This document shows, piece by piece, positions 5,438 to 22,071 of a stretch of DNA of 64,000 nt. Made by a program: the position numbers and the translations under genes. Origin of the DNA: Shewanella pealeana ATCC 700345 (lineage in GTDB: Bacteria; Pseudomonadota; Gammaproteobacteria; Enterobacterales; Shewanellaceae); assembly GCF_000018285.1 (NCBI RefSeq), contig NC_009901.1:1983001-2047000 (forward strand). Reading direction: 5' to 3'. Numbering within the stretch: position 1 is the stretch's first letter; the number at the start of each line of letters is the position of its first letter. Under the pieces are notes generated by a model that saw only the letters and a list, made by a program, of their open reading frames with translations, had not been told where the DNA came from and did not search any database.

Positions 5438-5869
5438 TTTATTTTTTACTCGGTAACAAAGGGGGAACTCTTAATAGCCCAACTGCGTAATAAGCGATTA
5501 TTCGCGAGGCTTGATATATGCCATTTTGGCGAACGCATAGTAAGCAATTCTTTGTAATCAATCTGCCGTCTAACCGGCATAAACCCATTGAATTATCATG
5601 AATTTGTTGCGTTTGCTCAAGAAATTGAATAAATGAAATGTCTTAATTAGCGAGGAGGGATGCAGGTTTTAACTGAATGCAGAAAGATTATGTTAAAAGC
5701 AGGTTTGTTTAGGGGGATATTGAAAATCTTATATGAAGTAATAGTTTATTTATCACTTTCTAGTGAGTTGTTACTCCTTGGGGGCCAATATCGCTTTGGA
5801 TAGTTAGCTAAGAGTAAATTACTAAAAACCGGATTAAAATCACCTTTCATCGACAAACTCAAGTATCAT
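5438..5869. other. 432-bp intergenic region between cytochrome and rnm
   Basis: Divergent promoter region, AT-rich. I see no trp-codon-rich leader peptide or attenuator of the kind expected next to rnm when trpE is the divergent neighbour. No clear FNR palindrome (TTGAT-N4-ATCAA) was found, although TTGAATTATCAT occurs near 5590. No other feature is seen. Confidence 0.5.
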
Positions 5870-6748
5870 ATGCCCATGAACGATGAAAATATCACAGACT
5901 TTAAATTGGTTGATTTACATAGCCACACGACCGCATCAGATGGTCAATTAACCCCGTCACAACTCATTGAGCGCGCAATAAGTAAAGGCGTGCACATGTT
6001 TGCCATTACCGATCATGACACCACTGATGGCTTGATAGAGGCTCATGAGTTTAATCGAGCCCATGAGACCCCACTAGAACTGATTAATGGCGTTGAGATC
6101 TCTACTCGATGGAACAATTTCGATATTCATATCGTTGGGCTTAATCTTGATATCGATAATGTCGAGTTGGCCGCATTTTTAGTGAATCAACGTGAGTTAC
6201 GATCGAGTCGAGCCAAACAAATTGGCGAGCGACTTGCGAAGGCTGACATCAAGGGCGCCTATGAAGGGGCTAAAAGCTTCGCTGGCGATGCCGCTATTAG
6301 CCGAGGACACTATGCTCGTTGGTTAGCCGAACAAGGCTACGCGACCACTACGGCCAATGTGTTTAAGAAGTATTTGGCTCGAGGTAAGACGGGTTATGTG
6401 CCTAACAATTGGCAGGACATGGCTAGCGCCATTGAGATAATTCATCAAGCGGGTGGGGTGGCAGTGTTAGCGCATCCTAGCGGTTATAAGCTATCTGCAA
6501 AATGGCTCAAGCGTTTAGTTCGTGAGTTTAAAGAGTCGGGCGGCGATGCGATGGAAGTCGTACTCGGTCAACAAACAATAGACGATCGCAACAACCTGAT
6601 CGCGCTGAGCATCAAAAATGGCCTGACATGCTCGTTAGGTAGCGATTTTCATTTCCCAAGTAGCTGGATTGAGATCGGTAAAAATATGTTCCAACCCCAA
6701 GGAGTGGATTGGGTTTGGCAGTCAGATAAATGGAAGGTAGTACAATGA
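5870..6748 (+). CDS. rnm: PHP-domain 5'-3' exoribonuclease RNase AM (YciV/TrpH)
   Basis: 292 aa. The PHP metal site is complete: HSHTTASDGQ near residue 17, TDHDT near 48, GVEIST near 79, H..GHYA, LAHP near 201 and the C-terminal SDFH. In E. coli this protein trims 5' ends of rRNAs and removes short RNAs from the 5' side. Two in-frame ATGs lie at 5870 and 5876; neither has a strong ribosome site. Its TGA overlaps the ATG of yciO by 4 bp (ATGA), so the two are coupled. Confidence 0.93.
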   Translation: MPMNDENITDFKLVDLHSHTTASDGQLTPSQLIERAISKGVHMFAITDHDTTDGLIEAHEFNRAHETPLELINGVEISTRWNNFDIHIVGLNLDIDNVELAAFLVNQRELRSSRAKQIGERLAKADIKGAYEGAKSFAGDAAISRGHYARWLAEQGYATTTANVFKKYLARGKTGYVPNNWQDMASAIEIIHQAGGVAVLAHPSGYKLSAKWLKRLVREFKESGGDAMEVVLGQQTIDDRNNLIALSIKNGLTCSLGSDFHFPSSWIEIGKNMFQPQGVDWVWQSDKWKVVQ

Positions 6749-13501: not shown

Positions 13502-14530
13502 TTGGAATTCCTGTACGAATATGGTTTATTTTTGGCCAAAGCGGTCACTATCGTCGCTGCGATTATTGCGGTAGTGATTGTTGTCTTAGCGTCTTCTATG
13601 AAGCAGAAAGCTGAAAAGGGCGAGCTTAAGTTAACCAACCTAAGCGAAAACCTAGCATTATTGAAGCATGACTTAAAAGAAGAGTTATTATCTAAAAAAG
13701 CATTCAAGGCCTATGAGAAGCAATTAAAGGCTGACGAGAAAGCCAAAGAGAAAGAGCAAAAAGATCAGGTTGAAGAAGCTGAGCCTAAAGTGTTTGTTGT
13801 CGACTTTAAAGGTAGCATTGATGCTGGCGAAGTGGCATCACTGCGTGAAGAGATCAGCGCTATCTTAGCTATCGCAGATAAGGGCGATGAAGTTATTGTT
13901 AATGTTGAGAGTGGCGGTGGCATGGTTCACGGTTACGGTTTGGCATCTAGCCAGCTTGACCGTTTAAGACAGGCTGAGATCCCTCTGACTATCTGCGTTG
14001 ACAAAGTGGCCGCCAGTGGCGGTTATATGATGGCCTGTGTTGCCAACAAAATTTATTCAGCTCCTTTTGCTATCGTAGGTTCTATCGGCGTGGTGGCTCA
14101 GGTACCTAACTTTAATCGTTTATTGAAGAAGCACGATATCGATTATGAGCAACACACAGCAGGTGACTTTAAGCGTACTCTGACTATCTTTGGTGAAAAT
14201 ACCGATGAAGGGCGTGAGAAGTTCCAAAAAGAGTTGGAAGAGACTCATGTGCTGTTTAAAGCGTTCATTGCCAAGTACCGTCCTGATTTAGATCTTGATA
14301 AAGTGGCGACAGGTGAGCATTGGTATGGCCAACAAGCAATTGAGCTTGGCCTTGTCGATGAAATCGCCACAAGTGATGATGTCATCATGAAGCTTGCTAA
14401 TGAGCGTACCGTGATTAAGGTGCAGTATCAGCTTAAGAAAACATTATCAGATAAAATTGCCCATGGTGCATCACTATCTTTTAATTCTATTTTCAATAAA
14501 TTTGCTGAGAAGAACCAGCCACTCAAGTAA
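13502..14530 (+). CDS. sohB: Membrane-associated S49 peptidase SohB
   Basis: 342 aa from a TTG start with TGGAGAG upstream; this start gives the N-terminus MEFLYEYGLFLAKAVTIVAA that matches SohB. One N-terminal membrane segment (residues 10-31), a charged linker, then the S49 domain. Catalytic dyad is visible as S172 (AASGGYMMA) and K224 (GDFKRTLT), 52 residues apart as in bacterial signal-peptide peptidases, plus GSIGVVAQ. A periplasm-facing protease whose E. coli homologue is a multicopy suppressor of htrA defects. Confidence 0.94.
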   Translation: MEFLYEYGLFLAKAVTIVAAIIAVVIVVLASSMKQKAEKGELKLTNLSENLALLKHDLKEELLSKKAFKAYEKQLKADEKAKEKEQKDQVEEAEPKVFVVDFKGSIDAGEVASLREEISAILAIADKGDEVIVNVESGGGMVHGYGLASSQLDRLRQAEIPLTICVDKVAASGGYMMACVANKIYSAPFAIVGSIGVVAQVPNFNRLLKKHDIDYEQHTAGDFKRTLTIFGENTDEGREKFQKELEETHVLFKAFIAKYRPDLDLDKVATGEHWYGQQAIELGLVDEIATSDDVIMKLANERTVIKVQYQLKKTLSDKIAHGASLSFNSIFNKFAEKNQPLK

Positions 14531-14552
14531 TTGAGACTCGGTTTACCACCAG

Positions 14553-14580
14553 AAAAAACCTGCACTTTGCAGGTTTTTTT
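14553..14580 (+). terminator. Rho-independent terminator after sohB
   Basis: Stem AAACCTGCA / TGCAGGTTT with a 3-nt loop and a long T-run. It marks the last chromosomal-core signal before the accessory island. Confidence 0.92.
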
Positions 14581-14635
14581 ATGCTTAGAATTAAGTGGGT
14601 TAATTAGCTATGCCATTACACTAGAACCATAATTC

Positions 14636-15025
14636 GTTATTGGACAAAAGTGACTTAAAGTTTTTAGTTCGAAAACCTCTAAAGCGTTTTAAGCAATCAA
14701 GCGGTGCTTGATAAAAGTCGTGGCGCTTCGCCCACACCCGAGCAAGGAGGACTGCTCGTCCTTATCCTCCTTGCATCCACCATGACGCCCCGACGAAGTT
14801 ACATGCATTAGATACGAGCCTTATACTTATTCGAAATAGTCTAACGCTTCCGATGGGGCATCCTGCCCCGCGAAAGCTATGCCCACATCCATGTGGGCAT
14901 TACGACTATTTCTTCAACGTATTTCGGCAACTTCGATGGGGAAAGGGTGTTTTCTGCAGGCCTAAATGCGCTATTAGGGTTTTGAGTTATGACTATAGCC
15001 CTAGCTCGTTTTTGGACAAAAGTGA
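14636..15025. repeat. Hairpin-rich MITE-like element bounded by 18-bp direct repeats
   Basis: Bounded by GTTATTGGACAAAAGTGA (14636-14653) and GTTTTTGGACAAAAGTGA (15008-15025), 17/18 identical. Between them lie several perfect inverted repeats: 14742-14751 with 14765-14774 (10 bp), 14855-14860 with 14864-14869 (6 bp), 14879-14888 with 14891-14900 (10 bp, 2-nt loop), and an outer pair 14833-14841 with 14904-14912 (9 bp) enclosing the last two. No convincing gene. Behaves like a structured non-coding mobile element or structured RNA; which of these is inference. Confidence 0.6.
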
Positions 15026-15062
15026 GCTAGGAATTTGATTTTAAGCATGTCAATTAGATGTG

Positions 15063-15164
15063 CACTAACGCCCTTATAATAAGTGAACCAAGCGCTGGCG
15101 GGCGATTAGCACAGCAAACGGCATGACAGCCTTGAGTGAGTCTTGATTTATAAGCTTGTTAGCC
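15063..15164 (-). repeat. Integron attC site 1
   Basis: Read on the minus strand it begins with the R'' core GGCTAAC (15164-15158) followed by AAGC, and ends with GGGCGTTAGTG (R' core at 15069-15063). Imperfect dyad symmetry lies between, with the central GCCCGCCAGCGC segment. It follows the 3' end of the 99-aa cassette ORF. The R'' matches the complement of the core that starts the same cassette (GTTAGCC at 15549), as expected for a cassette attC. Confidence 0.8.
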
Positions 15165-15186
15165 ATCTCTGACTATTTCAGATATA

Positions 15187-15486
15187 TTAAGTAATGAAGA
15201 ACCAAACAGCCCCAAATACCAACCAACTAATAGCCAGCATTCGTAATATCACTGTGTAATATGTGCTAAATTTAAAACTGAATGATATATGATTTAATAA
15301 CAACATTATTGGTATTATTAGAATATCATAATTGCCATACCTGTACGGATTCGAAGAATCAAGACTTATACTTAACGTCCAAAAAAGGTATAACAATAGA
15401 ATAGTGAGAAAGCCAAATTTATATATTTTATTTTCTGCAATCAGTCCTTTAGGTTTTTCCGTAAAAATAGCGATTAGTTTCTTCAA
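15187..15486 (-). CDS. Integron-cassette ORF 1: small membrane protein, unknown
   Basis: 99 aa starting at a TTG with AGAGGGA upstream. Three hydrophobic stretches are visible: residues ~28-46, ~55-72 and ~80-98 (SWLVFGAVWFFIT). AT-rich codon use unlike the flanking core genes. It lies alone between attC 1 and attC 2, in the orientation expected for a gene cassette (attC at its 3' end). Family not recognised; function unknown. Confidence 0.65.
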   Translation of the reverse strand: MKKLIAIFTEKPKGLIAENKIYKFGFLTILLLYLFWTLSISLDSSNPYRYGNYDILIIPIMLLLNHISFSFKFSTYYTVILRMLAISWLVFGAVWFFIT

Positions 15487-15542
15487 CTCTTAGTCCCTCT
15501 AGATTCAATCTTAAATGGAAATTAAAACGAATTCACAATAGT

Positions 15543-15646
15543 GGCTAACGCCCACGTTAAGGGGCTTTTTATTAGTTTGCTAAAGTTGTGTAACGAAGCG
15601 AAACCGAGCAAACTGTAAAAAGCCCCGCTTTAGTTACTTGTTAGGT
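15543..15646 (-). repeat. Integron attC site 2
   Basis: Minus-strand reading: R'' ACCTAAC (15646-15640), long arms GCGGGGCTTTTTACAG...AAAAAGCCCC that pair, and R' GCGTTAGCC ending at 15543. The stop codon of the 110-aa cassette ORF lies inside the R'' side, which is common in cassettes. The arms AAGCGGGGCTTTTTA and TAAAAAGCCCCTT give the folded single-strand structure that integrases recognise. Confidence 0.88.
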
Positions 15647-15966
15647 GCCTTATGCGATATTGCATTGATAATTAGTGCTTTATCGTTAATTAACACCTCA
15701 ACAACTTCTGCTGAAAGAAGGTTTTTGTCTTTTTCTTTTTGTGTCATTTCAGTCTCAAAACCATTTTCTAAATATTTAATAGTGTTGATATTTTTAATGT
15801 TGAGATTATTTGAATTAAAGTGATTTACGATTAAAGCACTTAACGAATCAATTTTTAGCTCTTTCATTGAAGCTTCAGAATATTTTGTAACTCCTTCAAC
15901 GGATCCGCTAGCTTGTATGTTAAAGCTAATACATAATAAAAATAAACTAATAATAATTGCTTTCAT
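15634..15966 (-). CDS. Integron-cassette ORF 2: exported small protein, unknown
   Basis: 110 aa with an AAAGGAAA ribosome site five bases before the ATG and a signal peptide (MKAIIISLFLLCISFNIQAS). The mature part is ~90 residues, mixed charge, without cysteine or recognisable motif; it likely works in the periplasm. The last codons (KAPNK) and stop are read from attC 2. AT-rich, cassette-type gene. No family recognised. Confidence 0.75.
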   Translation of the reverse strand: MKAIIISLFLLCISFNIQASGSVEGVTKYSEASMKELKIDSLSALIVNHFNSNNLNIKNINTIKYLENGFETEMTQKEKDKNLLSAEVVEVLINDKALIINAISHKAPNK

Positions 15967-16023
15967 TTTGATTTCCTTTTCTTTTCAGTTATAGCATTGC
16001 CAGAATTAGCAACACCCGTTGAC

Positions 16024-16151
16024 ACCTAACGCCGTGTTAAGGGGCGAAATACACTACGCCCCAGAACTAAAACTTTGTGATTAAACACTTAATTCAAATT
16101 TGACGCAAAATCGCCAAGCGTTTTGAGTCCCTCTTAAACACTTTGTTATGT
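16024..16151 (-). repeat. Integron attC site 3
   Basis: Minus-strand reading: ACATAACAAAGTGTTTAAGAG at the R'' end (16151 downward) and CGCCCCTTAACACGGCGTTA at the R' end (to 16024). Both ends closely resemble the Vibrio-type attC (VCR) ends AACAAACGCCTCAAGAG and CCCCTTAGGCGGGCGTTA, as remembered. The R'' GCACATAAC is the exact complement of the core that opens the same cassette at 16541 (GTTATGTGC). Confidence 0.9.
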
Positions 16152-16187
16152 GCGAAATATTATGACCGACTCGGCTGCACCAAAAAT

Positions 16188-16499
16188 TTAGCGAATCACC
16201 TTAAACCTAATAAAATACAAGCTATTTTCGGTGGGGTAAATCTTGCGCAATATCCACTTGAGCATAAACACAAACGGTAAGTTCTCTGCTTTAGCATGCT
16301 CTCGGTTTAACTCTGCGAATTTTACAGGTTCTACGCCTAGAATCTCGATATCGCAGATTTTTCTACCTTCTTCATGAGTGCTCGCTTCAAGAAGTTGTCC
16401 GACATAATAGTGACTCTCCGTTTTATCACGAATCGTAGCTACCTTTTTACCCGAGGTTATCTGTCGTTCCATACGTTCGAAAAAAGTTATTTTATCCAA
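16188..16499 (-). CDS. Integron-cassette ORF 3: YqfB-like ASCH-domain protein
   Basis: 103 aa from a TTG with AGGG eight bases upstream. It matches the ASCH/YqfB pattern: ITFFERMERQITSGKKVATIRD near the N-terminus (E. coli YqfB has [22 protein letters not shown]), then a beta-rich core, LNREHAKAEN, and the C-terminal FIRFKVI. E. coli YqfB hydrolyses N4-acetylcytidine; ASCH domains in general bind RNA or modified nucleosides. The conserved K and T of KKVATIRD are present. Function in this host is inferred. Confidence 0.8.
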   Translation of the reverse strand: MDKITFFERMERQITSGKKVATIRDKTESHYYVGQLLEASTHEEGRKICDIEILGVEPVKFAELNREHAKAENLPFVFMLKWILRKIYPTENSLYFIRFKVIR

Positions 16500-16534
16500 T
16501 AAGTTACCCTACTATCTCAAAACGCGCTTCTAGC

Positions 16535-16705
16535 ACATAACAGCTTATTATCCAGCGCCTCGGATAAATCCCTGCACTTTATTAATTTACATCAAAGCTA
16601 GCAGCGTAACTCGTTGATGTAAAGAAGTTAACCCTCTGGAATTAACAAAATTACAACTTACCATCCCGCAAAGTAATGCAGAACATTTATCGGGTCTCTT
16701 GTTAG
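16535..16705. other. Right border of the cassette array: cassette core site and possible attI/attC remnant
   Basis: ACATAAC at 16535-16541 (GTTATGT on minus) is the leading core of cassette 3. To its right there is an inverted repeat TTTACATCAA / TTGATGTAAA near 16592-16624 and a second core-like GTTAGAT at 16699-16705. This could be a degenerate attC or attI. No integrase reading frame is found here. Confidence 0.4.
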
Positions 16706-16830
16706 ATTAAATCGGAAACCTAGCTGTATGATAAGTAACTGTTATTTCAAATGTTAAAAAATTATCGATGCAACTATTTCACTTTCTAGCATCGATAAAT
16801 CTGTCTCATTCATCAAGGTCATTATACCTG

Positions 16831-16875
16831 TACAAAATTACCTTAAATAAGCGCACGAACTATCCCGTGTAGATA
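16831..16875. repeat. Interspersed repeat copy R1, left part (split by the IS)
   Basis: AAATAAGCGCAC...CCCGTGTAGATA aligns with AAATAAGTACAC...CTAGTGTAGATA at the start of copy R3 (near 20194-20229). The rest of the copy continues on the other side of the IS from about 18196. Confidence 0.6.
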
Positions 16876-16941
16876 ATTGGACTCCCCACTCTTTAATTCG
16901 TTACGGTATAAGTCAATTCTCACGAGATTTCGGAGTTTAAA

Positions 16942-17979
16942 ATGAAAGGTACGATTGTTGGCGTTGATCTGGCTAAAAATGTAATTCAAGTTTGTGTCTT
17001 CACAAATAACAAGGTGCACTCAAATACTGAAATGACACCGAATGAATTTATCGACTGGCTGGCTAACTTTGCCACCGTAACCATCGTGTTCGAAGCTTGT
17101 GGAATGTCTAATTACTGGAAACAAAAAGCAATGACGTTTGGCCATGAGGCTAAGTTAATTTCAGCAAAGTTAGTCTCAGCTGTCAGGCAAAATCAAAAAA
17201 CAGACAAAAATGATGCTTTAGCGATTGTTCAGGCGGCACTCTTGCCCGAGGTCAACTTCATCACGGGTAAATCAGTCGAGCAGCAGCAACTGCAATCTAT
17301 TATGAGACTACGAGAGCTGGCTATTAAACAAAAAACGGCGATGACTAACCAGCTCACTTCATTATTAGCAGAGTTTAATCTGATGACGTCAACCAAACAT
17401 GGCGGCTTACGCGGTGTGATTGAATCAACGTTAGAAGACGCTGAAAATGATTTTTCTTCTGAGTTTCGTAACGCTCTTGCGGCGGCCTGGCAACAGTATT
17501 TAGCTGTCGTCACATCTATAGCAACTTATGACCAGTGCTTGGAAAAGTCACTTAACACTCATCCTGAGGCTAAAAAACTATTAAAAATTGAAGGGGTGGG
17601 TACTCTCAATGCTATTAATCTTTATATCGCATTAGGTTGCGCTGATATTGGTGTTGTTTCCACAGGAAAAGATGCATCTGCCTGTATTGGATTAACGCCG
17701 ATTCAATATTCTTCAGGTGGAAAGGCCAAACTGGGGTCCATAGGAAAACACGTTAAGAATAGCATTCTCAGAAGCCAGTTAATCACAGGTGCGTTGTCAG
17801 CGGTTAGTCAAATGGTCAAAAGAGAACCCAAAACGACGAAGGAGCGCTGGGTTCAGGCTTTGGTTGAGCGACGGGGTAAGAAATGCGCCGCGGTGGCGTT
17901 AGCCAATAAGACGGTCAGAACTGCCTATGCCATGCTTACACAGGGTACAGAATATAAAGCAGAGTTAATTTCAGCGTAA
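16942..17979 (+). CDS. IS110-family transposase
   Basis: 345 aa, full length. N-terminal DEDD (RuvC-like) domain with D at GVDLAK, E at FEACG and the KTDKNDA motif; C-terminal transposase-20 domain with IEGVGTLNAINLY and GLTPIQYSSGGKAKLGSIG, whose serine is the expected nucleophile. RBS TTTCGGAG before ATG 16942. IS110 transposases act with an element-encoded bridge RNA that specifies donor and target. The gene is intact, so the element may be active. Confidence 0.93.
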   Translation: MKGTIVGVDLAKNVIQVCVFTNNKVHSNTEMTPNEFIDWLANFATVTIVFEACGMSNYWKQKAMTFGHEAKLISAKLVSAVRQNQKTDKNDALAIVQAALLPEVNFITGKSVEQQQLQSIMRLRELAIKQKTAMTNQLTSLLAEFNLMTSTKHGGLRGVIESTLEDAENDFSSEFRNALAAAWQQYLAVVTSIATYDQCLEKSLNTHPEAKKLLKIEGVGTLNAINLYIALGCADIGVVSTGKDASACIGLTPIQYSSGGKAKLGSIGKHVKNSILRSQLITGALSAVSQMVKREPKTTKERWVQALVERRGKKCAAVALANKTVRTAYAMLTQGTEYKAELISA

Positions 17980-18181
17980 AAGCGTTCAAACAACAAAAAT
18001 GCACAATCGAAGATTAAAATCAGCCAGTTAAGGTAGCCCGTATCAAAGAGTCTTGAACTCGTCGTGTAGAATTATCAACTGGTTCGCGTAAATATCATAG
18101 AGCCTGAGTTCGCTACTCAATTGAGAGCTCGTACATAAGTTCGCATTTATTCTTTAAGAGTGCCTGTTTGTTGTTGACACA
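17980..18181 (+). ncRNA. Candidate bridge RNA region of the IS1111-type element
   Basis: The ~200 nt between the transposase stop and the right inverted repeat carry no reading frame. IS1111-group elements are known to encode their bridge RNA in this right non-coding end, whereas IS110-group elements use the left end. Length is right for a bridge RNA. Boundaries, loops and guide segments were not resolved; the call rests on position and family knowledge. Confidence 0.5.
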
Positions 18182-18195
18182 GGGGAGTCCACATA

Positions 18196-18485
18196 AGATA
18201 CGGCTGCGGGCTTCGATTTCAGGGTGAGTGATAACGAAGTTATCAAGCTTTCGAACGAGAGGCTGGATGCCGAACTGGCCTTTAAACACGGATATTGTTT
18301 GTCATCGCAGAGTTTACAGGGAACCTTTCCGTTATAAAGAAGTGCAGCGTCTCGCAGAAGTGACTGCACATACCTCGCTGGAGGCGATTGATAACCATGA
18401 AGCGAAAATGTAGAACACACTCCCCCGTAGCAACAAGCACAAAGATAAATGTAATCAGCCTTCATTCGAAGGCTAACCAACTTTG
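18196..18485. repeat. Interspersed repeat copy R1, right part
   Basis: Shares long near-identical blocks with R3: CAGGGTGAGTGATAACGAAG from 18220, TCAAGCTTTCGAACGAGAGG, GATGCCGAACTGGCC, CTGGAGGCGATT, AAGCGAAAATGTAGAACACA, and the hairpin AGCCTTCATTCGAAGGCTAA. A minus-strand reading frame across this copy resembles one in R3 only because the DNA is repeated; I do not regard it as a gene. Confidence 0.85.
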
Positions 18486-18498
18486 GGGCAAAAGCTAT

Positions 18499-18603
18499 TC
18501 ACCACAGAGGACACGGAGATCACGGAGAAGATCAACATCGAGGCCTGTAAAGCTCTTCATCTTTACCTCCGTGAACTTGGTGAAAGCACAGCACTCCGTG
18601 GTG
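18499..18603. repeat. CCACAGAGG-type REP hairpin repeat
   Basis: CACCACAGAGGACACGGAG at 18500 and CACTCCGTGGTG ending 18603 form an interrupted long inverted repeat, with inner arms CACGGAG (18512-18518) and CTCCGTG (18567-18573). This ACCACAGAGGACACGGAG word is a widely scattered bacterial intergenic repeat. A degenerate right half (CTTAGTGAAAG...CTTCGTGGTAGAG) also trails copy R3 near 20555-20585. Confidence 0.75.
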
Positions 18604-21890: not shown

Positions 21891-22071
21891 GTTTGCCTTC
21901 GGAATTTAAAAGCGTGCTTAATTTAGAGTGGCTTTCAAGATATTCCTTTTTAATTCTTCTAGCCTTCATTCGAAGGTAAGCATGTTTTTTAAGCTTAATT
22001 TCATAAAAGGCTATTAATTCTTATTTAGATCCGCTAAAAATATTGTCACCTTTCAACTGTTATTGAGTGTA

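Follow-up and report, generated by a model that had tools for sequence, protein, structure and literature searches.

An integron cassette array without intI in Shewanella pealeana is headed by an attI-like platform of a dispersed Shewanella family

Clusters of attC sites lacking an integron integrase, termed CALINs by Cury et al. (as cited in extracts of PMC9024848 and PMC8618304), have been reported in most Shewanella strains (PMC9229058, in extract). Off-target insertion, loss of intI, and rearrangement are given as their three origins in the available part of PMC8618304, and judging from that part and from extracts of PMC9024848, decay, off-target insertion, or rearrangement is the customary explanation for CALINs, with attI unsought outside class 1. 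Because IntegronFinder detects attI in class 1 only (PMC9024848, in extract), attI-bearing arrays would simply be classed as CALINs. Two further arrangements deserve comparison. CALINs of Xanthomonas at fixed loci away from intI occupy recurrent chromosomal positions in several species, and no attI is mentioned at them in the extracts of PMC12444791; the Delta-attI-type cassettes are attI-derived sites outside the usual place, namely pieces of attI that act as cassette sites in mobile integrons (PMC12901181, in part). Within the accessible portions of the open-licence PMC literature, we found no description of integrase-less arrays with attI as a dispersed, partly orthologous set.

The array described here lies in a 64-kb stretch of the S. 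pealeana genome (the whole of this stretch is hereafter called the window), on a chromosome-sized contig of 5.17 Mb. With three attC sites, cassettes, and no intI nearby, it is a CALIN by definition, and it differs from plain CALINs in carrying an attI platform, as judged by homology. Unlike the Delta-attI-type cassettes, this attI heads an array at a chromosomal locus. The array resembles sedentary chromosomal integrons in that its attI is homologous to that of a complete integron in another Shewanella genome (copy G116:C7), that it has a LexA-like box, and that its attC sites share one orientation; it differs from them in having no intI in cis and in that several attI platforms occur per genome, at different loci. 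Of the features of an integron, an attI homologue at the first cassette and cassettes whose core matches R'' are present, and intI is absent. Mobile integrons are defined by location on a plasmid or known transposon; the window array is on the chromosome-sized contig, and a megablast of positions 14600-16950 against 72,556 plasmid records gave no match. We consider it probable that this is an intI-less integron, composed of an attI docking site, remains of the intI-attI intergenic region, and three genuine cassettes, as one of a set of orphan platforms dispersed in Shewanella and served by IntI in trans. We read it as such, and not as attC sites severed from their platform, because an attI of a dispersed family stands directly upstream. 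The original prediction of a stranded integrase-less cluster is thus borne out as to the CALIN, whereas "stranded" describes it incompletely.

All three cassettes lie on the minus strand, where leftward ORFs of 99, 110, and 103 aa had been proposed. Cassette 3 (16030..16541) holds an ORF at 16188-16499, whose 103-aa product matched N4-acetylcytidine amidohydrolase (NF003443; 115 bits, cut-off 93), in agreement with its earlier label as ASCH/YqfB-like. Cassette 2 (15549..16030) carries an ORF at 15634-15966 for a 110-aa protein with a signal-like N terminus (by eye), and cassette 1 (15069..15549) an ORF at 15187-15486 (TTG start) for a 99-aa, membrane-like protein (by eye); a Pfam search returned no match for either. 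Relatives of the cassette 2 protein (49-51% at the amino acid level) are encoded by the ORF that comes first after the orphan attI in three other regions (L144, L214, and L132).

The attC sites were sought with R1, a covariance model of 43 attC sites adjoining intI in other Shewanella genomes, the window sites being excluded. Its seeds came from 20 arrays with 69 candidates, of which 4 spurious ones were removed by eye and the rest restricted to lengths of 96-128; the final 43 were drawn from 14 of the 20 arrays, and counts of outer-helix pairs in R1 are partly circular because seeds were picked partly by stem score. Simple attC scans were too strict or noisy and were kept solely as a source of seeds. 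Independently of the original reading, R1 recovered exactly the three attC sites that it had named (E 2e-12 to 7e-11): attC3 (16024..16151, minus strand; 61.4 bits, E 1.9e-12), a long site that we take to resemble the Vibrio repeat; attC2 (15543..15646, minus strand; 55.5 bits, E 5.3e-11), with a partly mismatched L box; and attC1 (15063..15164, minus strand; 55.1 bits, E 6.7e-11). The fourth best of the five matches over the 64-kb window drops to 16.5 bits (E 0.14). The proposed cassette logic also holds throughout, with the leading core being the reverse complement of the cassette's own R'' in 3/3 cassettes, cassette 2 included (GTTAGGT with ACCTAAC). Among relatives, attC from intI-linked arrays (e.g., L053) share up to 87.8% identity with attC1; for attC2 the highest value is 92% (in L243, a region with intI), and the long sites of L049 share about 73% with attC3. 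Rfam gave zero matches to the window at gathering level; a sok-like match overlapping attC2 scored 18.8 bits, below the gathering value of 59.

Single-strand folding gave a mixed picture. When folded freely as single strands, attC2 and attC3 beat shuffles (z -3.0 to -4.0), and attC1 did no better than shuffles (z -0.04 and -0.83). R-box pairing in the bottom strand was good in attC1, poor in attC2, and moderate in attC3, with probabilities of 0.92, 0.02, and 0.21, respectively (10th percentile across 44 seed sites, 0.43). Interior-shuffled sites matched the observed pairing in 5/100, 96/100, and 10/100 cases for attC1, attC2, and attC3, respectively. Going by modelled R-box pairing, attC2 looks weak and attC3 under average. 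For the extrahelical bases, the bulges agree with the R1 alignments of the three sites.

Directly upstream of cassette 3, positions 16541-16841 are, by homology, an attI platform; the interval first proposed (to 16541) covers the three cassettes and stops where this attI begins. The putative attI core of about 88 nt (16538..16624, minus strand) terminates in GTTA at the cassette junction (G at 16541) and can be aligned to 24 other copies. Beyond it, the leader (16542..16841, minus strand), which appears to be a relic of the intI-attI intergenic region, is common to other orphan attI copies to about -300 and is 81-88% identical to nine other long-leader copies. A degenerate LexA-like box (AGGT-N8-ACAG; 16828..16843, minus strand) is followed by TATAAT (16821-16826, minus strand); CTGT-N8-ACAG is retained in 9 of the 14 copies in which the box was read and is changed in the window copy. 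A promoter scan for Pc gave 2 candidates against a shuffle mean of 2.4, no excess.

The sequence upstream of cassette 3 recurs, up to the junction, at 2 other places in its own genome and is present in 22 of 129 genus genomes (this one and 21 others), copy numbers in this comparison being lower bounds as the best 6 candidates per genome were scored. Across 30 aligned copies, conservation covers the final ~88 nt, and divergence begins directly past GTTA. One of them, G116:C7, is flanked by a complete intI on one side and six attC on the other, and the 88 nt are therefore taken to be attI; the window core is 81% identical to this attI over the last 87 nt. Compared with G116:C7, mean identity amounts to 0.87 in the last 40 columns and drops to about 0.5 beyond, and among the orphan copies compared it is 0.82-0.89. 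From -300 to -83, resemblance to the G116:C7 intI-attI region is blockwise (LexA-like box, TATAAT, hairpin, and CGATAAATGTTCT block; by eye).

We also built a sequence-only model, R2, from 25 attI copies, the window copy among them, so that the window match is by construction. On 36 other intI-linked loci, R2 gave 7 matches, all weak (L059-L063, L233, and L234), the strong match being G116:C7. The matches in L059-L063 fall at the attI place beside intI, and there is a weak match too at the attI place by the broken intI of the window's own genome (L010), these together scoring 13.0-16.6 bits (E 0.005-0.065). A second attI type was noticed by eye in that genome, where the 3.47-Mb array has kept, without intI, the part of the broken 3.20-Mb integron that reaches from the LexA-like box to attI.

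A census with R2 (E ≤ 0.01; best 34 candidates scored per genome) found at least 59 sites in 32/129 genus genomes, with up to six each. In an even draw of 295 genomes from the order, which included some Shewanella (best 15 candidates per genome), at least 5 matches were obtained at E ≤ 1e-4, every one in this genus. Forty-four sites reached at least 42 bits, and larger regions were examined for 39 of these, including the window and the complete integron L129, with a contig end cutting six of the 39 on one side. At 19/39 sites, an attC (E ≤ 0.01) followed on the same strand no more than 2.5 kb downstream; an attC on the opposite strand was seen at none, and one upstream at 1. At 20/39 sites, no attC was found at this threshold within 2.5 kb, and the 1.5-kb flanks of four of the 5 left-out sites (L108, L109, L110, and L112) yielded none at E ≤ 1. 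An ORF of at least 55 aa begins within 152 nt of attI at 38/39 sites, compared with 356/780 random places, and the attI copies are followed by many different ORFs across sites. Past the first ORF, an R'' that matches the leading core exactly was found at 18 of 33 sites (five non-GTT junctions and one site without an ORF being left out), against a mean of 1.9 and a maximum of 7 in 1000 shuffles of the cores. IntI similarity was seen at 1/39 sites (L129), a distant recombinase (34%) at L218 being left out of this count; intI could not show at the first L204 site, L210, and L211, which lie less than 420 nt from a contig end on the intI side. Genome G116 combines one complete integron with five further attI sites, four of which head 6, 3, 5, and 1 attC; at the fifth, no attC was detected. 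In some regions, sites occur in series: L137 has attC upstream of attI within one array (5682-5785 and 6623-6709), and L131 and L204 each have two attI in tandem on one strand, as if attI-led arrays had been stacked.

Some of these sites are orthologous between species. At locus alpha (3592k in the window's own genome, G116:C3, G102:C4, and G077:C44), the attI and both host flanks are held in common, and the first ORF differs: the own genome has a lipoprotein-like gene of 163 aa there, G077 a gene of 204 aa, and both G116 and G102 a relative of window cassette 2 with 107 aa; the attC of the 163-aa-ORF cassette is cut, with the R'' side alone visible. At locus beta (G029, G056, and G068), the first ORF has 433 aa in G029 and G068 and 467 aa in G056, the downstream flank being visible in G068 and the upstream one not. 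At both alpha and beta, the sequence changes exactly at the attI junction. Locus gamma (G068 and G108) is not as clear, as neither genome yielded an attC next to attI; G068 has an extra attI with an acetyltransferase-like ORF, which G108 carries at another attI (92% over -86..+569). At these orthologous orphan sites, intI is absent in every genome where the place is visible. Beside the orphan attI at 3592k, a REP-associated tyrosine transposase-like gene was noticed by eye (L138, ~7759 onward).

The claim that the window holds no integrase was upheld, the 5 TIGR02249 matches of the genome all lying outside it. No match in the 5.17-Mb genome exceeded the TIGR02249 cut-off, and what was found were intI fragments and other sub-cut-off tyrosine-recombinase matches. 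Genome-wide, R1 located at least 21 attC (E ≤ 0.01) in 9 places (best 150 of 1639 candidates scored), and the intI fragments, 1.2 and 0.75 Mb distant from the window array, comprise a truncated N-terminal piece at 3199314-3199622, adjoining attI and a cassette, and, next to the 2.75-Mb array, a piece of 31 aa. Across the genus, intI was matched at E ≤ 1e-40 in 85/129 genomes and above the cut-off in 77/129. A full intI is present elsewhere in G116, G102, G077, G056, and G029; at E ≤ 1e-40, there is none in the window's own genome, G068, or G108.

Dispersed platforms whose cassettes differ exactly at the junction would be best fitted by action of IntI in trans. An IntI encoded at another site would have inserted and exchanged cassettes at an orphan attI, through attI x attC recombination with attC as a folded bottom strand, and the first cassette may be expressed from a promoter within or close to the leader. 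The cassette differences could also have arisen before intI was lost, or via homologous exchange of flanks. A wider proposal, to which we give somewhat less than even credence, is that of a distributed integron, in which several intI-less attI docking sites at fixed loci have persisted through speciation, hold individual sets of cassettes, and are served by one or more IntI in trans; the window array would be one such site, now without an intact IntI. As only intI fragments were found in its own genome, the array is probably frozen at present and would be expected to lack mobility until an IntI is acquired.

The host gene next to the array (13502..14530, plus strand), presumably sohB, served as locus marker, with a match in 118/125 genomes, this one included. 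Between it and the array lies a dispersed repeat (14640..15030; at least 46 genome matches, best 40 of 56 candidates scored) with a 99% copy at 1420447-1420837; a TwoAYGGAY RNA match lies inside the repeat (14805-14929, minus strand; 37.9 bits, below the gathering value of 43). On the other side, upstream of attI, is an IS110-family element (16854..18224, plus strand, as delimited by the stretch in common with other copies), whose transposase (16942-17979) scored 262 bits against NF033542 (cut-off 140). The genome has 3 near-identical copies (all 27 candidates scored), the others at C1:3474555-3475925 and C1:3591237-3592600, and each stands upstream of an intI-less attI; repeat-like sequence was seen past the right end of the copies. 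The idea that IS110 had cut the LexA-like box was dropped, as both IS-bearing copies of the window attI type share the changed box and the IS begins further out than the box.

With IS110 and repeats occupying the place where intI would be expected, a leader that extends to the intI promoter region, and two arrays with intI fragments (3.20 and 2.75 Mb) in the same genome, an ordinary decayed integron might be supposed, in which a complete integron beside sohB lost intI in place and nothing acted in trans. We hold this to be unlikely. No IntI-like sequence occurs at the window, nor at 38/39 attI-like sites (3 cut by a contig end), and orphans with different upstream flanks lose similarity at about -300 to -313, short of the intI start (~-340); orthologous orphan sites are without intI wherever visible, yet their cassettes differ. 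In five copies (L133, L137, L141, L202, and L203), the shared sequence extends to -470 or -730.

Spread of leader and cassettes together as a MITE-like or IS-borne element is, in our judgment, distinctly unlikely. An array framed by inverted repeats or MITEs is known as an integron mobilisation unit, and none of the 13 pairs of inverted repeats (at least 14 nt) in 14530-18600 frames the window array. Although several copies occur per genome (three in G116 agree at 98-99% across their final 313 nt and a fourth at 91%), the leader is common to the copies and the cassettes are not, and some loci are orthologous between species, which argues against such a unit despite the dispersed repeats close to arrays and the position of 3/3 IS110 copies upstream of intI-less attI.

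The sohB locus is occupied differently among relatives. In G107, it holds a copy of cassette 1 (94.8% nucleotide identity) and an ASCH cassette (73.5% at the amino acid level) in reversed order, and attC are found there in G102 and G029 too; attI was not recognised at this locus in these three genomes. In G080, G098, G001, G034, and G048, sohB is followed directly by a gene matching window 21985-22009 onward. Off-target capture, by which an IntI acting elsewhere placed the cassettes at a secondary genomic (attG-type) site, has a precedent in reported attG insertion (Loot et al. 2024, as cited in extracts of PMC12901181 and PMC12444791) and would suit G107, with cassette 1 and no recognisable attI, but is very improbable for the window, where the junction is preceded by an attI homologue common to 24 other copies that lead into many different ORFs, and the target is attI-like, whereas an attG target is neither attI nor attC.

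Under the preferred reading of an integron without intI, the array bears on how CALINs are viewed. If many of them carry attI, arrays without an integrase may function as platforms that can be reloaded in trans at the first cassette position; the counting of integron content would then change, and an attI model combined with orthologous loci would provide a direct test of CALIN origin.

Other observations concern the surroundings of arrays elsewhere. Near the broken integron, an ORF (L011, 14545-15384) resembles what we take to be a chromosomal class D beta-lactamase, and beside the broken integron (L002, 190-1170) lies a REP-associated tyrosine transposase-like gene (NF047646; 42.6 bits, cut-off 80). 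In the window's own genome, two stretches 1.9 Mb apart, C1:2295768-2307000 and C1:4221124-4232356 (L124 and L127), are 100% identical over 11,233 bases, the identity reaching the edge of the compared region on one side, and each holds the same attC array.
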